Source: a virus. Taken from it: DNA of 25,050 bases. Positions 10,735 through 25,050 of the stretch are shown piece after piece. The notes beneath the pieces are model-generated. The model saw only the letters and a program-made list of their open reading frames with translations. It was not told the DNA's origin and searched no databases. Both the position numbers and the translations under genes were made by a program. Numbering within the stretch: the first letter of the stretch is position 1; the number at the start of each line of letters is the position of its first letter. Location of the stretch: IMG/VR virus record IMGVR_UViG_3300028559_002412, positions 1 to 25,050 of that record; one strand, 5' to 3'.

Positions 10735-10759
10735 ACACATTAGCTAAAGACTAATGTGT
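10735..10759 (-). repeat. Right-end IS hairpin / probable 3' part of the TnpB guide RNA scaffold
   Basis: A perfect 9-bp stem (ACACATTAG and its complement) with the 7-base loop CTAAAGA. The tnpB stop codon TAG (10751-10753) lies inside the stem. In IS200/IS605 elements the right end is the 3' end of the omega RNA, and the guide is the host DNA just beyond the border. Here that would begin (AT)TAAAAGAATTAAAG on the minus strand, that is, the interrupted nuclease gene. The start of the omega RNA inside tnpB cannot be fixed by eye. Confidence 0.7.
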
Positions 10760-11932
10760 TTCAGGTTTCATAGACTCATCTAACGACAACGCCTCCACCT
10801 GTTTTTGTTTTATATCCGACTCAATCCCTGAACCAGATAGTATTTTTAAACCTTGTTTTAATATGTTTTTACTTGCATTAAAATCTCTATCATGTTTTTC
10901 ACCACAAGATTCACAATTCCATTCTCTTATTGAAAGAGTTAAATCCTGATTTATCCACCCACAATTTGAACACATTTTGCTCGAAGGAAAGAATCTATCA
11001 ATTTTAACAAATTGTTTATCATTCCAATTGGCTTTATATTCTAACATAGAATAGAATGAACCTAAACTAACATCAGACATTGCTTGTGCTAACTTATGGT
11101 TTTTCATGATATTTTTTACGGCTAAATCCTCCACTGATATAATGTCGTGGCTTTTGACAATTTCAGTCGAAACTTTATGTAAATAATCTTTTCTTGCATT
11201 AGTTATTTTTTCATGAACAACCGCAAGTTTTTGTTTTTGTTTATTTCTCGATGAACTACCTTTTTGTTTTTTAGATAGTTGTCGTTGTTCATATTTTAAT
11301 TTTTTTAAACTATTCTTTAAACTTCTAATATTTTCATATATAGTTCCATCACTTAATATAGCTAAATCTTTAATACCAGTATCTATACCAACTTCACTAC
11401 CAGTTTTTTCAAAAGGTTTATGATTTACTTCACAGGCAATAGAAACATAATATTTACCTGTTGTTGATTTAGATATGGTAGCAAACAATATTTCACCATT
11501 AGTTTCTCTGTGTAAATTGATTTTAATACCACTTTTGAATTTAGGTAAAATTAATTCATTATTTTCTAATTTAACAAATTGAGGTATTTTAAATGATTGT
11601 TTATCATATTTTGATTTAAATTTTGGAAATTTAGATTGTTTTCTAAAAAATTTACCATAAGCTGTATCAAGATTTCTTAAAGATGATTGAAGTGATTGGC
11701 TATTAATTTCTTTTAACCAATTAAAGTTTTCATCTTTCTTAAATTGAGTTAAATCGTTAGCATTATCATAGTAATTAAGCGATTTTTTATCTTCTCCAAG
11801 ATAACTTTCTTTTCTCTTGTTTAGATAATGATTGAAAACAAATCTACAAGCACCAAAGTGTTTAGACATCAGTATTTCTTGTTCTTTATTTGGATATATT
11901 CTAAACTTAAATGACTTAAATATTGTTTTCAT
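10751..11932 (-). CDS. tnpB: TnpB, RNA-guided RuvC-like nuclease of an IS200/IS605 element
   Basis: 393 residues, normal length for TnpB. The N-terminal FKFRIYPNKEQE, FGACRFVFNHYL and NSQSLQSSLRNLDTAYGKFF segments form the helix-turn-helix/wedge part. RuvC residues are present: Asp184 in VGIDTG, Glu268 in ISVEDL, and Asp350 in DRDFNAS. The zinc ribbon has Cys321/Cys324 and Cys340/Cys343. All catalytic and zinc residues are intact, so the protein is probably active. It is divergent from tnpA, with 103 bases between the starts, and its 3' end runs into the right-end hairpin. Known role of the family: omega-RNA-guided DNA cutting that helps keep or spread the element. Confidence 0.95.
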   Translation of the reverse strand: MKTIFKSFKFRIYPNKEQEILMSKHFGACRFVFNHYLNKRKESYLGEDKKSLNYYDNANDLTQFKKDENFNWLKEINSQSLQSSLRNLDTAYGKFFRKQSKFPKFKSKYDKQSFKIPQFVKLENNELILPKFKSGIKINLHRETNGEILFATISKSTTGKYYVSIACEVNHKPFEKTGSEVGIDTGIKDLAILSDGTIYENIRSLKNSLKKLKYEQRQLSKKQKGSSSRNKQKQKLAVVHEKITNARKDYLHKVSTEIVKSHDIISVEDLAVKNIMKNHKLAQAMSDVSLGSFYSMLEYKANWNDKQFVKIDRFFPSSKMCSNCGWINQDLTLSIREWNCESCGEKHDRDFNASKNILKQGLKILSGSGIESDIKQKQVEALSLDESMKPETH

Positions 11933-12035: not shown

Positions 12036-12449
12036 ATGTCTAAAAATTCCAATTACAATTCAACAAATCGTTCAAAACATTATTTAAAGTGTCATTTAAT
12101 CTTTGTATGTAAATACAGAAAGAAATTACTTGTTGGTCAATTAAAAGATGATATTAAACAATTATTTTTATCTATTGCTTCCAAATCAGATTTTGAAATA
12201 GAAGTTATGGAATCTGATATAGACCATATACATTTCCTTATCCGTTATATTCCAAGATTATCTATAACATCAATTGTTAGAAAGTTAAAACAAGAATCTA
12301 CCTACCATATATGGCGTTCAGTTCATAGAAATTATTTATACACACAATTTTGGGTTGAAAAAACTTTTTGGTCAGATGGTTATTTTGTTTGTTCAATTGG
12401 AGAAGCCAATCCAAATACCATTAAACAATACATTTTAACACAAGGTTAG
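12036..12449 (+). CDS. tnpA: TnpA, Y1 (HUH) transposase of an IS200/IS605 element
   Basis: 137 residues, the full size of the family. KCHLIFVCKYRKKLL is the conserved first strand. DHIHFLIRY carries the HUH metal ligands His64 and His66. The nucleophile is Tyr132 in TIKQYILTQG. It catalyses single-strand excision and insertion guided by the end hairpins. The only TAG stop of note here ends this gene at 12447-12449. The start is placed at 12036 because the first conserved segment (NRSKHYLKCH) follows directly. All key residues are present, which suggests that the element is young or still mobile. Confidence 0.95.
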   Translation: MSKNSNYNSTNRSKHYLKCHLIFVCKYRKKLLVGQLKDDIKQLFLSIASKSDFEIEVMESDIDHIHFLIRYIPRLSITSIVRKLKQESTYHIWRSVHRNYLYTQFWVEKTFWSDGYFVCSIGEANPNTIKQYILTQG

Positions 12450-22781: not shown

Positions 22782-22795
22782 ACCTTCTTTTCTTT
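22763..22795. terminator. Bidirectional terminator shared by convergent genes
   Basis: A perfect 14-bp stem (AAAGAAAAGAAGGT with its complement) and 5-base loop ATTAA. The plus-strand lipoprotein gene's TAA is in the loop, and the stop codon of the minus-strand GluRS-like gene begins in the right arm, so both genes end inside the hairpin. Confidence 0.85.
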
Positions 22796-23576
22796 AAAAT
22801 GTTAATGAAAGATCTCTCTTATTCCAAGCCTTGTTTAGGAAAAGAAGTTTATTCTTATCAATCTTACAATTTCGGTTAGAGATATTACCATCATTGAAAA
22901 GTGCAATCATTTCATCCATACTCAATGTCTTATACTTACTATCAAAGTTAGGATCAGGATGTGACCAACCAAATTTAAACAGCCAATTTAAAAGTGCCTT
23001 TTTATTGACATCTTTATAATCTTCTGTTGTTCCGTTCCCACTTCTTTTTGAAAGTTTTGAATTTCCTTCGAAAAGGAGCCCGGCGTGAATAACTTCCGGA
23101 AATGTCTTATTGCCATCAACTTTACAGATTTCATTCCAAATAGTTTTTTGTTTGTCAAGGTTAGAAATGTGATCAACACCACGAATGATGTGTGTAATAT
23201 CATAATCATAATCATCCAAAATAGAACAGAAGTTATAAGTCGGATATCCATTATTTCTAAGAATAACCATCTTATATTCACCCATGTCAAGTTCGTAACC
23301 ATTTTCAGTCTTGGTTCCAATTTTTTCAGCAACTTCTTTATATCGATCCAATCTTTCAGATTGCTTGAAAGTTAAATCATAATCTAAACCAAATTGACTC
23401 ATTTGGTCATAGATATAATCAATATACTCTTGTTTATTTCTTTCTTGGTCAGTATCATCAATACGAAGTATAAATTGACCACCATTGGCTCTCGCCATTA
23501 GATAGTTAAGAAGTGCTGTGCGGAGATTTCCGATTTGCATATATCCAGTTGGGCTCGGGGCTATTCTTGTTCTCAT
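22794..23576 (-). CDS. Minimal glutamyl-tRNA synthetase-like protein (catalytic domain only)
   Basis: 260 residues, class I synthetase core. RIAPSPTGYMQIGNLRTALL matches the GluRS first motif, but HIGH reads QIGN: the first His is Gln14. Then FILRIDDTDQERN, YPTYNFCSILDDYDYDITHI, RGVDHISNLDKQK, and KLSKRSG (174-178, the KMSKS motif) followed by ALLNWLFKFGWSHPDP. Full bacterial GluRS has about 470-500 residues; the anticodon-binding domain and part of the connective region are absent. YadB/GluQ enzymes are similarly short, but the motifs here are closer to true GluRS. It might charge a phage tRNA, modify a tRNA, or be a decoy; loss of the HIGH His would be expected to weaken catalysis. A TATCTTTG element lies upstream. 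Confidence 0.88.
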   Translation of the reverse strand: MRTRIAPSPTGYMQIGNLRTALLNYLMARANGGQFILRIDDTDQERNKQEYIDYIYDQMSQFGLDYDLTFKQSERLDRYKEVAEKIGTKTENGYELDMGEYKMVILRNNGYPTYNFCSILDDYDYDITHIIRGVDHISNLDKQKTIWNEICKVDGNKTFPEVIHAGLLFEGNSKLSKRSGNGTTEDYKDVNKKALLNWLFKFGWSHPDPNFDSKYKTLSMDEMIALFNDGNISNRNCKIDKNKLLFLNKAWNKRDLSLTF

Positions 23577-23603
23577 TGATTTTTTGTTTTCTTATATATT
23601 TTA

Positions 23604-23611
23604 CAAAGATA
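23604..23611 (-). promoter_or_regulatory. Bacteroidota-type -7 element (TATCTTTG)
   Basis: TAnnTTTG match 28 bases upstream of the GluRS-like start at 23576. It predicts a leader of about 20 bases. No plain -33 element. Confidence 0.5.
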
Positions 23612-23674
23612 ACCAAAAAAATTAAAAAATAAAAATTTTCACTTAGGGACTTTTAGATTGTTAATATATATAGT

Positions 23675-24763
23675 ATGAATAAACAATATATTTATGTACT
23701 CATTGATCCGGAATCTAATAAAATTAGATATGTCGGTAAGACAAAAAATCCAAAAGATCGTTTAAAAAGACATATAAATAGTTATAATCTATTGGAATCT
23801 TGGACTAAAAAGAATAAGTGGATTTTAAATTTAAAGAATAAAGGATTAGAACCTATAATGAATATTATTGATGAAGGGGATGATTATAATATTAATGAGT
23901 TAGAATCCAGTTGGATATCATATTATGAGAATCTTGGATTGAGATTGACAAACATGACAAAAGGTGGTGATGGATTTGACTGGACTAACAGAAAACATAA
24001 AATAGAGTCAGTTGAAAAGATGAAAATGAATCATCCTTTAAGAAAGGAGATTATTCAATTTGATTTGGAAAACAATATAATAGAAATTTATAATTCATCA
24101 TATGAGGCTGAAGAAAAGTCTGGAATAATAAGATCTAATATTATAAGATGCTGTACAGGTAAATACATACAATCAAAAGGATATTATTTTAGATTTATTG
24201 ATAAATATTTTTGTTGTAAAAAATCTAAAAAAGAACCTGATTTACTTGTGATAAATAAAGCAATTGAAGAATTCAATTTGAATAAAGTCAAATATCTAAC
24301 AAATATGCAAATTATTAGACAAAAAATATCTAAAAAGAATAGCAAATCAGTCATTCAATATGATTTAAATGGAAATATATTGAATGAGTTTAAATCTATG
24401 AGTGAAGCCAAAAATAAAACAGGATGTCACATAGGATTGATTTCAAAATGTTGTAATTTTAAAGGTTATTATACGGTCAAAGATACGACTTTTAGATATA
24501 CCAATGATGAATTTGATTATATACCTTATAATAATAATATACAGGTAAATAGCAAGATAATATGTCAGTATAATTTAGATGGTAAATTAGTAGAGATATA
24601 TGATTCTATTAAACAGGCTTGTAGAGAAAATCAAATAAATAGTGATAGTAATATCATATCATGTTGTAGAAGAAAAATTAATAAAAAGACAGGTAATTTT
24701 ATAATCGTTAAAGGACATACATATAGGTATTTTAGTGAGACTAATGGTGAAAATTTAAATTAG
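23675..24763 (+). CDS. GIY-YIG homing-type endonuclease with three NUMOD1-like repeats
   Basis: 362 residues. The N-terminal nuclease reads YIYVLIDPESNKIRYVGKT, then DRLKRH with the catalytic Arg, and NELESSWISYY with the metal-binding Glu. Three DNA-binding repeats follow: IIQFDLENNIIEIYNSSYEA, VIQYDLNGNILNEFKSMSEA and ICQYNLDGKLVEIYDSIKQA, each ending in a Cys-Cys and a Y-x-F/Y-R-Y/F strand (NUMOD1/IENR1 type). It is free-standing, not in a visible intron, and lies next to the tRNA cluster, a common site for homing genes in large phages. It is on the plus strand, unlike its neighbours, which fits later insertion. The 3' end is folded in a long hairpin. Confidence 0.92.
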   Translation: MNKQYIYVLIDPESNKIRYVGKTKNPKDRLKRHINSYNLLESWTKKNKWILNLKNKGLEPIMNIIDEGDDYNINELESSWISYYENLGLRLTNMTKGGDGFDWTNRKHKIESVEKMKMNHPLRKEIIQFDLENNIIEIYNSSYEAEEKSGIIRSNIIRCCTGKYIQSKGYYFRFIDKYFCCKKSKKEPDLLVINKAIEEFNLNKVKYLTNMQIIRQKISKKNSKSVIQYDLNGNILNEFKSMSEAKNKTGCHIGLISKCCNFKGYYTVKDTTFRYTNDEFDYIPYNNNIQVNSKIICQYNLDGKLVEIYDSIKQACRENQINSDSNIISCCRRKINKKTGNFIIVKGHTYRYFSETNGENLN

Positions 24764-24774
24764 TCTCACTAAAA
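24730..24774. repeat. 16-bp perfect hairpin across the end of the GIY-YIG gene
   Basis: TTTTAGTGAGACTAAT (24730-24745) pairs exactly with 24759-24774 around a 13-base loop. The TAG stop (24761-24763) lies in the 3' arm. No U-run follows on either strand, so it is a weak terminator candidate; mRNA protection or a mobility-related end structure is possible. The 46 bases between it and the first tRNA hold nothing that I can recognise. Confidence 0.65.
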
Positions 24775-24820
24775 TGCTTTAAGGACATAGACAAGTTATT
24801 CGATTAGTTAATTTTTATTG

Positions 24821-24892
24821 TTGCCAAGGTAGGATTCGAACCTATATCTTTTGATCCAGAGTCAAAAATAATTACCATTATACGATTTACCA
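24821..24892 (-). tRNA. tRNA-Gln (anticodon CUG), imperfect acceptor stem
   Basis: 72 nt to the discriminator base A73. The anticodon loop CTCTGGA closed by TTTGA/TCAAA gives anticodon CTG (plus-strand 24857-24859). The D-arm GTAT AATGGTAA TTAT is the common Gln form, and the T-loop is TTCGAAT. The acceptor TGGTAAA against CTTGGCA has mismatches at 3-70 and 7-66 and a wobble at 4-69, and T-stem pair 49-65 is A-C. Either the gene is decaying, or it needs editing. No CCA is encoded. It follows the second tRNA after 5 bases. Confidence 0.7.
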
Positions 24893-24897
24893 ATTTG

Positions 24898-24969
24898 CTC
24901 CCCCATCTCGTACTGACCGAGATCCAACTGTTTCAAAGACAGTTATGCTAACCTTCACACTCTGGGGGA
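24898..24969 (-). tRNA. tRNA-Gln (anticodon UUG) with unusual T-loop
   Basis: 72 nt. Acceptor TCCCCCA/TGGGGGA pairs perfectly; the U1-A72 pair and G73 are Gln identity features. Anticodon stem ACTGT/ACAGT with loop CTTTGAA gives TTG (plus-strand 24934-24936). T-stem TCTCG/CGAGA is perfect, but the T-loop reads GTCAGTA in place of TTCRANN, so positions 54 and 58 are both G and the standard T54-A58 pair is lost. No CCA is encoded. It is separated from the next tRNA by only 5 bases, so 5' processing by RNase P is required. Confidence 0.8.
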
Positions 24970-24977
24970 TTGTTTTG

Positions 24978-25050
24978 TTGGAGTAGCAGGACTCGAACCT
25001 ACACAGAACTTACGTTCCACTGGGGTCAAAACCCAGCGCCATGCCATTAG
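24978..25050 (-). tRNA. Partial tRNA with anticodon UUG and a long (class II-like) variable arm
   Basis: The 5' acceptor and half of the D-arm lie outside the window. Visible: D-loop GG, D-stem TGGC, anticodon stem CTGGG/CCCAG with loop TTTTGAC (anticodon TTG, plus-strand 25027-25029), a 17-base variable region (25003-25019) able to form GAAC-GTAA-GTTC, T-arm GTAGG TTCGAGT CCTGC, acceptor TACTCCA with A73. Position 72 is A, so the first pair would be U-A as in Gln tRNAs, yet Gln tRNAs normally have a short variable loop. No CCA is encoded. Confidence 0.75.

Follow-up and report, generated by a model that had tools for sequence, protein, structure and literature searches.

Gln tRNA genes at the end of the window

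The window (the whole stretch analysed, 25,050 nt, positions 1 to 25,050 of IMG/VR record IMGVR_UViG_3300028559_002412) is part of a huge phage, and its last positions (24820-25050, minus strand) hold three neighbouring tRNA genes with Gln anticodons (CUG, UUG and UUG), each of them irregular, as the first-pass annotation had stated from the letters alone. The sequence beyond the window was read in contig G001 (IMGVR_UViG_3300028557_002631), which was found by an exact search with the tRNA 2 sequence and matches the window without a difference over 20,630 nt; there, about 20-130 nt past the window end, lie a Gln leader ORF and a terminator. The features of the locus are the following, in window coordinates unless G001 is named:

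22794-23576, minus strand: GluRS-like catalytic domain, 260 aa, without the anticodon-binding domain (PF00749, E 8.8e-51)
23675-24763, plus strand: GIY-YIG/NUMOD1 homing endonuclease (Pfam PF01541, PF07453), at the site of the relatives' GlnRS
24729-24775: near-perfect inverted repeat (opposite-strand self match, E 2.2e-9)
24820/24821-24892, minus strand: tRNA 1, tRNA-Gln (CUG), from ARAGORN; Rfam RF00005, 42.1 bits
24898-24969, minus strand: tRNA 2, tRNA-Gln-like (UUG), read from the sequence; 35.0 bits as G001:3507-3578
24978-25050, minus strand: tRNA 3, tRNA-Gln (UUG), cut by the window end; Rfam 33.4 bits when truncated
G001:3415-3498: tRNA 3, complete; Rfam 55.6 bits
G001:3381-3408: intrinsic terminator aaccctgtcaat-ctta-attgacagggtttttt, ending 6 nt upstream of tRNA 3
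G001:3298-3351: leader ORF MTTFTQYQQQQQINRTD, 17 codons and a stop, ending 29 nt before the terminator

Regarding the single genes, tRNA 1 is the last of the operon, and the mismatches claimed for its acceptor stem are indeed marked as non-standard pairs in the alignment (by eye, G3.G70 and A7.C66). tRNA 2 has a perfect acceptor of 7 bp (UCCCCCA/UGGGGGA), a T-loop that reads GUCAGUA in place of UUCRANN, which is the deviation first described for it, and, by eye, G at both positions 8 and 14; it is absent from the ARAGORN list and from the filtered Rfam scans, and it scores 35.0 bits in a genome search with a cut-off of 29. The anticodon arms of both tRNA 1 and tRNA 2 are intact. tRNA 3, the first tRNA of the operon, has in G001 a perfect acceptor with U1-A72, the anticodon UUG and a variable region of 17 nt with a 5-bp stem, so that the class II-like arm noticed in the truncated gene is also present in the complete one.

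As for their identity, tRNA 1 and tRNA 3 combine a cloverleaf and a Gln anticodon with U1-A72 and G2-C71, while tRNA 2 has U1-A72 but C2-G71. The long arm of tRNA 3 does not make it a class II (Leu, Ser or Tyr) tRNA, given its UUG anticodon and U1-A72, and covariance scoring of the complete gene did not reassign it to Leu or Ser, as the first-pass annotation had thought conceivable.

Genomic context

The closest named record is LR745206.1 (634,780 nt), which belongs to the type of huge-phage genome that PMC7162821 describes; phages with as many as 67 tRNAs and 15 synthetases are reported there, and the GluRS-bearing members are linked to Bacteroidetes. Matches to tRNAs number about 66 in LR745206 and about 68 in LR756501 (735 kb), with 41-68 in most large relatives. 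Within such a tRNA array, the Gln set is a single operon out of many: the contig alone carries at least 16 tRNAs for 10 amino acids, so the idea of a tRNA complement focused on Gln falls, and the flanking sequence in G001 rules out an isolated odd set. The presence of a leader peptide and a terminator just past the window end accounts for the grouping of the three Gln tRNAs.

In relatives, a phage GlnRS gene lies directly behind the Gln tRNAs; none is seen beside those of the window, whose contigs are fragments, and the homing endonuclease gene occupies the place. Homing endonuclease genes are found among the tRNAs of T4 and T5 too. The inverted repeat at 24729-24775 probably terminates transcription in both directions, as the Gln operon and the homing endonuclease gene converge on it; a mir-71 match at 24733-24771 is under the gathering score and corresponds to this repeat. 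The nearest cellular relatives of the phage GlnRS are nearly all from Bacteroidota (up to 59% identity), which indicates that the hosts of this huge-phage group are probably Bacteroidota.

The GluRS-like protein of the window scores 223 bits with TIGR00464, below the cut-off, and passes the family cut-off of neither GluRS nor GluQ-RS. LR745206 encodes at 23431-24192 (minus strand) a protein 80% identical to it, a paralogue beside a full-length GluRS. A leader attenuator was not seen upstream of the GluRS-like gene of the window, which is tied to the Gln tRNAs by proximity only. Elsewhere in the window there is an IS200/IS605-type element (10751-11932, minus strand, and 12036-12449, plus strand) with a TnpB-like OrfB (PF01385/PF07282) and a Y1 transposase (PF01797).

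Gln leaders and terminators in related phages

The combination of Gln leader, terminator and Gln tRNAs occurs in G001, in LR745206, where the leader MTTTQQIQQQQINQTD (with its stop) and a terminator are at the same place, and in about ten further contigs. Gln-rich leaders of this kind, before Gln tRNAs or GlnRS, are MTTTSQYQQQQQINRTD, MRTTTQYQQQQQINPTD (two contigs), MNNLVQQVQQQQINLMIDWTRIG, MTTFTQQYQQQQIDREIDW, MKNLTLQQQQQMIKLD, MRTTTQFQQQQINRTD and MKTLTSQQQQLFKPD, and additional ones came from a pattern scan and from LR756502. The leader MSQTQTHIQQLQQQFDTKG directly precedes GlnRS, which is the position of the Gln leader in L052; the GlnRS contig L053 has neither tRNAs nor leader. A natural rearrangement is seen in L054 (6259-6708), where a Gln tRNA is inside a Pro/Asp operon and the leader of that operon also has Gln codons (AQVNPQPQDQD).

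In the operon of the window, the tail of the Gln leader ORF, ACAGAUUGAU, can pair with UCAAUCU in the terminator's 5' arm; when this tail is free, the predicted antiterminator fold has -18.2 kcal/mol, vs -16.7 kcal/mol for the terminator alone.

Leader-terminator units before other tRNA operons

The same arrangement was sought in tRNA regions, mostly from ten phage records, by combining ARAGORN tRNAs, a strict terminator rule and an ATG ORF ending 14-50 nt before the terminator. This automatic scan of huge-phage relatives returned 64 distinct leader-terminator units before tRNA operons; two LR756504 leaders (Asp/Tyr/Gln and Lys), missed by the automatic rules and seen by eye, are outside the statistics, while an Asn-type leader of LR745206, likewise missed in one stretch, was added by hand for the within-genome permutation.

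The codons of these leaders follow the tRNAs behind them: MTTNSTHKNFSKSHKWFSNQSFGTESVLSLN precedes His, Phe, Trp and Lys tRNAs (an example is HKNFSKSHKWF), MKTINNTSKSSSRSSSMSEIRLYS precedes Arg and Ser, MNTITNIASYESYYEEGNLVRRNNYVVM Glu and Tyr, MKNLNNISIAVIGNGAGAIREWLSYGI Ile, Gly, Met and, further on, Ala, and MKTINVNIAPVNPQPQDQDPMRKANYVFMIS Pro and Asp; in LR756501, MNNILHINLLNSLCLLGIKLIG stands before five Leu tRNAs, and in LR756504, MKAMILSLCLSLSLSLQKLGVVGVCKVIS before Leu, Ser and Cys (an example is SLCLSLSLSL). Some tRNAs, i.e. isolated Met tRNAs and one cluster of LR756501, have no leader before them.

The best match of 57 of the 59 leaders is their own operon. In every genome having at least four units, no other permutation of leaders over operons equals the true pairing, out of 5,040 in six genomes and out of 720, 120 and 24 in three more. 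When each orthologous class is represented by a single leader (15 classes, set by amino acid sets because automatic single-linkage had put almost every operon in one class), the median z reaches 8.5 and none of 2,000 permutations is as good. Since the phage records are related to each other, most weight should be given to the within-genome and per-class tests.

As a control, the 22 tRNAs that open a cluster in T4, T5 and XacN1 were scanned, and none has a terminator within 450 nt upstream; in the huge-phage loci, some of which overlap, 59 of 117 such tRNAs have one. A Q-rich short ORF is present at 0 of 80 bacterial glnS loci (450 nt upstream), which speaks against a host origin of the leader, and at 9 of 10 phage glnS loci, where the count covered 1,200 nt to allow for the intervening tRNAs. 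Finally, an Rfam gathering scan of nine leader regions lists only tRNAs, so that a T-box or another known element was discarded.

Antiterminator pairing

The measure of pairing was the best helix, gaps excluded, that the end of a leader ORF can form with the 5' arm of a terminator. The mean helix score is 19.5 for own pairs, 13.1 (sd 2.6) for pairs swapped between operons and 12.5 for shuffled ones, and 48 of the 64 units have a helix with p <= 0.05, the other 16 being without one by this simple ungapped test. Own pairs also exceed swaps within the same class (mean difference 3.1, Wilcoxon p = 7e-8), which indicates that the leader and terminator strands coevolve; in three Phe/His/Lys operons, for example, the two strands are GTTCGG/CCGAAC, TCGATTCGA/TCGAATTGA and TTCGGGGTT/AACCCCGAA. 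Cognate codons stand at 47% before the pairing segment vs 18% after it, and the last one is at a median distance of 8 nt.

A trp-like protector (1:2) hairpin was also considered for all leaders: it is clear in the Gln family, essentially the only one to have it, and over all 64 units the pairing of regions 1 and 2 is no better than in shuffled sequences. Most units, judged from their predicted pairings, look like a reduced attenuator with two structures, and given this restriction of the protector to the Gln family, transcription would be expected to pass the terminator when the leader is not translated. In many units, among them the Phe/His/Lys, Asn and Pro/Asp types, a distance of 15-40 nt separates the end of the pairing segment from the stop codon downstream; being outside the footprint of a ribosome parked at the stop, it implies that the OFF state would have to depend on ribosome and polymerase moving in step.

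Sensing codons, promoters and 5' motifs

The sensing codons are enriched for those that are rare in these phages (Ala GCG 47% vs 6%, Val GTG 50% vs 8%, and likewise Pro CCG 43/6, Gly GGC 39/5, Arg CGC 24/1 and Thr ACG 27/5); the response of an attenuator is known to be more or less sensitive according to which synonymous codon it uses (PMC1183508). Leaders also use more different synonymous codons than expected (327 vs 296, z 4.2); the Leu leader of LR756501 has all six Leu codons.

Upstream of the leaders, within 110 nt, a -7 box of Bacteroidota type, TAnnTTTG, is present in 39 of 64 cases (2.6 expected). Most Gln leaders have no TAnnTTTG box in these 110 nt, and for this reason they may rely on read-through from the Pro/Asp operon. 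Separately, 35 of the 64 units have the motif AATATATA in the 40 nt that precede the ATG of the leader, often downstream of a short hairpin (e.g. L016 1960-1999); it is possibly a phage element for translation start or a promoter element.

Genome-wide scan and synthetase genes

All 634,780 nt of LR745206 were also scanned blindly for terminators with leader-like ORFs, whatever the gene downstream. The genome has 149 intergenic terminators, 21 of them with a leader-like ORF, and 15 of these 21 units have a helix score of at least 16. Seven of the 15 precede tRNA operons and two have no gene behind; the blind scan also gave units at the following genes:

AsnRS and ArgRS-like: leader MKTMTINNRNRLTDII (NNRNR)
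AspRS: leader MKNIRLNDDRFLLTNCKADW (DD)
IleRS: leader MNFNTIIIIRYSIPWSIPIG (IIII)
ValRS-like protein: leader MKTINLNNLVVVNVSV (VVVNVSV)
PheS-related ligase SrmL (NCBIfam NF051887), gene at L221:13821-14897, minus strand: leader MNTNTTFNFFFSHKMV (FNFFF), LR745206 615030, minus strand
HisRS-like ORF: weak, 245 nt from the unit

A LeuRS-like gene is behind MINNNVNILLLPLT (LLLPL), whose antiterminator, seen by eye, is just after the stop codon and outside the scanned stretch. The Phe-rich leader before SrmL suggests that this ligase may charge phenylalanine. In LR756501 and LR756504, the top helices are again mostly at tRNA operons.

As a separate observation, a gene for a 708-aa protein (L226:5768-7891, minus strand), elongation factor G by its sequence, has upstream the leader-like ORF MKTVLKFIIKTIIVSRYDRVYID (LR756504 68058, minus strand) and a terminator, with modest antiterminator pairing.

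Irregular tRNAs across the group

Unusual variable arms are frequent in these phages: among 360 tRNAs belonging to class I isotypes, 60 have a variable region of at least 10 nt, and short arms occur in 21 of the 45 Leu tRNAs. Class II-like arms were observed on Asn, Cys, Pro, Asp, Gln, Lys, Thr, Glu and Met tRNAs across the tRNA loci of the group; G001 (L016) has examples of unusual variable arms at 4-97, 291-374, 554-628, 1760-1836 and 2170-2355. The long-arm Lys, Asn, Thr, Glu, Met and Gln variants form families common to several phages, which argues that they are not mere decay. Gln operons of two to four tRNAs occur in about a dozen related phages, and eight have one long-arm copy.

Recruitment of a tRNA-Leu as the origin of the long-arm Gln tRNA was considered, and the nearest-neighbour comparison was ambiguous: in G006 and in the LR745206/L054/G003 subfamily, the closest isotype other than Gln is Leu, which does not hold for the window's own tRNA. 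Another oddity is the presence in LR756501, at 690585-690737 (plus strand, L033), of two adjacent tRNAs with a CUA anticodon, resembling amber suppressors, which ARAGORN calls Pyl.

Proposed mechanism and alternative explanations

The Gln tRNAs are very probably the structural genes of an operon under ribosome-mediated transcription attenuation. At the level of sequence, this reading is built on an ORF, codons matching the genes behind it, a terminator and an antiterminator strand that coevolves with it; from these we infer that the leader is translated, that ribosomes stall on it and that a shortage of charged tRNA induces the operon. The polymerase would transcribe the short leader ORF with its clustered Gln codons; with plentiful Gln-tRNA, the ribosome would clear these codons and cover or cross the tail of the ORF, the terminator would form, and the operon would be off. 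When charged Gln-tRNA is short, the ribosome would instead stall on the Gln codons, leaving the ORF tail to pair with the 5' arm of the terminator and to block it, so that the Gln tRNAs (and in relatives GlnRS too) would be made. With other codons, the same design would serve nearly all tRNA operons and several aminoacyl-tRNA synthetase genes of this huge-phage group. Points that count against this reading are the lack of a protector hairpin outside the Gln family, the pairing segments far from the stop codon, the 16 units with no significant ungapped helix and the tRNAs that have no leader.

What the switch would respond to is more speculative. The chances are about even that its signal is the loss of host tRNAs, either by a nuclease defence or by exhaustion during infection, and not amino acid starvation: the controlled genes make tRNA and synthetase, products that relieve a shortage of tRNA but not one of amino acids, which makes loss or exhaustion of host tRNAs the likelier signal. 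Somewhat more tentatively, the units together might form a genome-wide regulon for tRNA homeostasis, in which attenuators tuned to single amino acids would sense the loss of individual host charged tRNAs (e.g. after a tRNA-cleaving defence) and switch on replacement tRNAs of altered structure and their synthetases, as an inducible counter-defence based on the stalling of ribosomes.

Among the alternatives, the one with most in its favour accepts the attenuators as real and takes ordinary starvation of the host for amino acids as their signal. We regard it as a tentative but sizeable possibility, because the known leader-peptide attenuators of amino acid operons sense the supply of amino acids (PMC1183508), and a ribosome stalls for lack of the amino acid just as for lack of the tRNA; against it, the nature of the controlled genes counts, as does the spread of the sensing codons over synonyms and their enrichment for rare ones, as if single isoacceptors were watched, although this last point is suggestive only.

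That the tRNAs are irregular mainly to evade host nucleases targeting tRNAs, regulation being secondary, is rather unlikely, even if such evasion has been proposed or shown for phage tRNAs (PMC10264068, PMC11555353) and would suit the scrambled variable arms and the conservation of their variants; it is compatible with the leaders, but leaves them unexplained.

Decay was one of the readings offered for these genes by the first-pass annotation, and for the set as a whole it is unlikely, since Gln operons of two to four tRNAs are conserved across the group. Taken singly, tRNA 1 and tRNA 2 may still be decaying; that both are simply decaying duplicates, as the acceptor mismatches of the former, the T-loop changes of the latter and their being missed by standard finders might suggest, is improbable in view of the two intact anticodon arms and the perfect acceptor of tRNA 2.

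Slightly more doubtful still is an orthogonal Gln set charged by phage enzymes only. The GlnRS genes directly following the Gln tRNAs in relatives lend some substance to this early proposal, as do the GluRS-like catalytic domain near the tRNAs of the window and the retention of U1-A72 and G2-C71 in most phage Gln tRNAs, the long-arm ones included; these same acceptor identity elements, however, argue that an ordinary GlnRS would charge them too, and no GlnRS is seen beside the tRNAs in the window, whose contigs are fragments.

Control of the terminator by a protein or another RNA element, with the leader ORF acting in some other way, is very improbable: translation of the leader is indeed deduced from its sequence, but the matching of codons in 15 operon classes has no other economical explanation, and the Rfam scan of the nine regions gave no known element. 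Finally, plain codon supplementation, with constitutive tRNAs and with leaders and terminators as incidental features (e.g. ends of upstream genes), is hardly credible, for although phage tRNAs are widely taken as codon compensation (PMC10264068), the codon match and the coevolving antiterminator go far beyond chance, and terminators placed right before the genes they silence, which T4, T5 and XacN1 do without, would make no sense for constitutive tRNAs.

Relation to known systems

The phage units resemble the trp, his, leu, thr and pheST attenuators in having a short leader ORF with cognate codons, a terminator before the structural genes, a mutually exclusive antiterminator formed by the leader, and an upstream promoter. 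They differ in being located in viruses and in controlling tRNA operons (and synthetases); moreover, one leader often has codons for two to seven amino acids, matching a mixed operon, the protector hairpin is mostly missing, and many parallel units exist in each genome. With T-box riboswitches they share the principle that synthetase and related genes are raised by antitermination when charged tRNA is short, but the T-box binds uncharged tRNA directly and needs no leader ORF.

As for phages, T4, T5 and XacN1 have clusters of many tRNAs like those described here, but leader-terminator units were absent from them in the same scan. Al-Shayeb et al. 2020 (PMC7162821) deals with the same kind of phages as that of the window, and its main text has no mention of attenuation, leader peptides, terminators, operons or variable loops. 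The phage tRNAs that evade retron and tRNA-nuclease defences (PMC11555353, PMC10264068) are alike in replacing lost host tRNAs; in the portions available, these systems differ from the phage units in having no leader-peptide sensing, and the available text of PMC10264068 does not contain the words leader, attenuat- or operon. No report of such phage tRNA attenuators was found in the open-licence literature; thus, the principle of attenuation is known, while its use by viruses for tRNA genes, as a regulon of many units, appears to be new.

Significance for phage tRNA biology

The reason why phages carry tRNAs has been debated for decades, with codon compensation on one side and the replacement of destroyed host tRNAs on the other. 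A switch that opens each operon only when its own charged tRNAs are short would, if true, tell the purpose of these tRNAs and make it testable with simple reporters. The multi-amino-acid leaders are legible by eye, and leader codons would predict the substrate of the gene behind them. In conclusion, if the proposed mechanism holds, leader-peptide attenuation would extend from the biosynthetic operons of bacteria to the tRNA genes of viruses.
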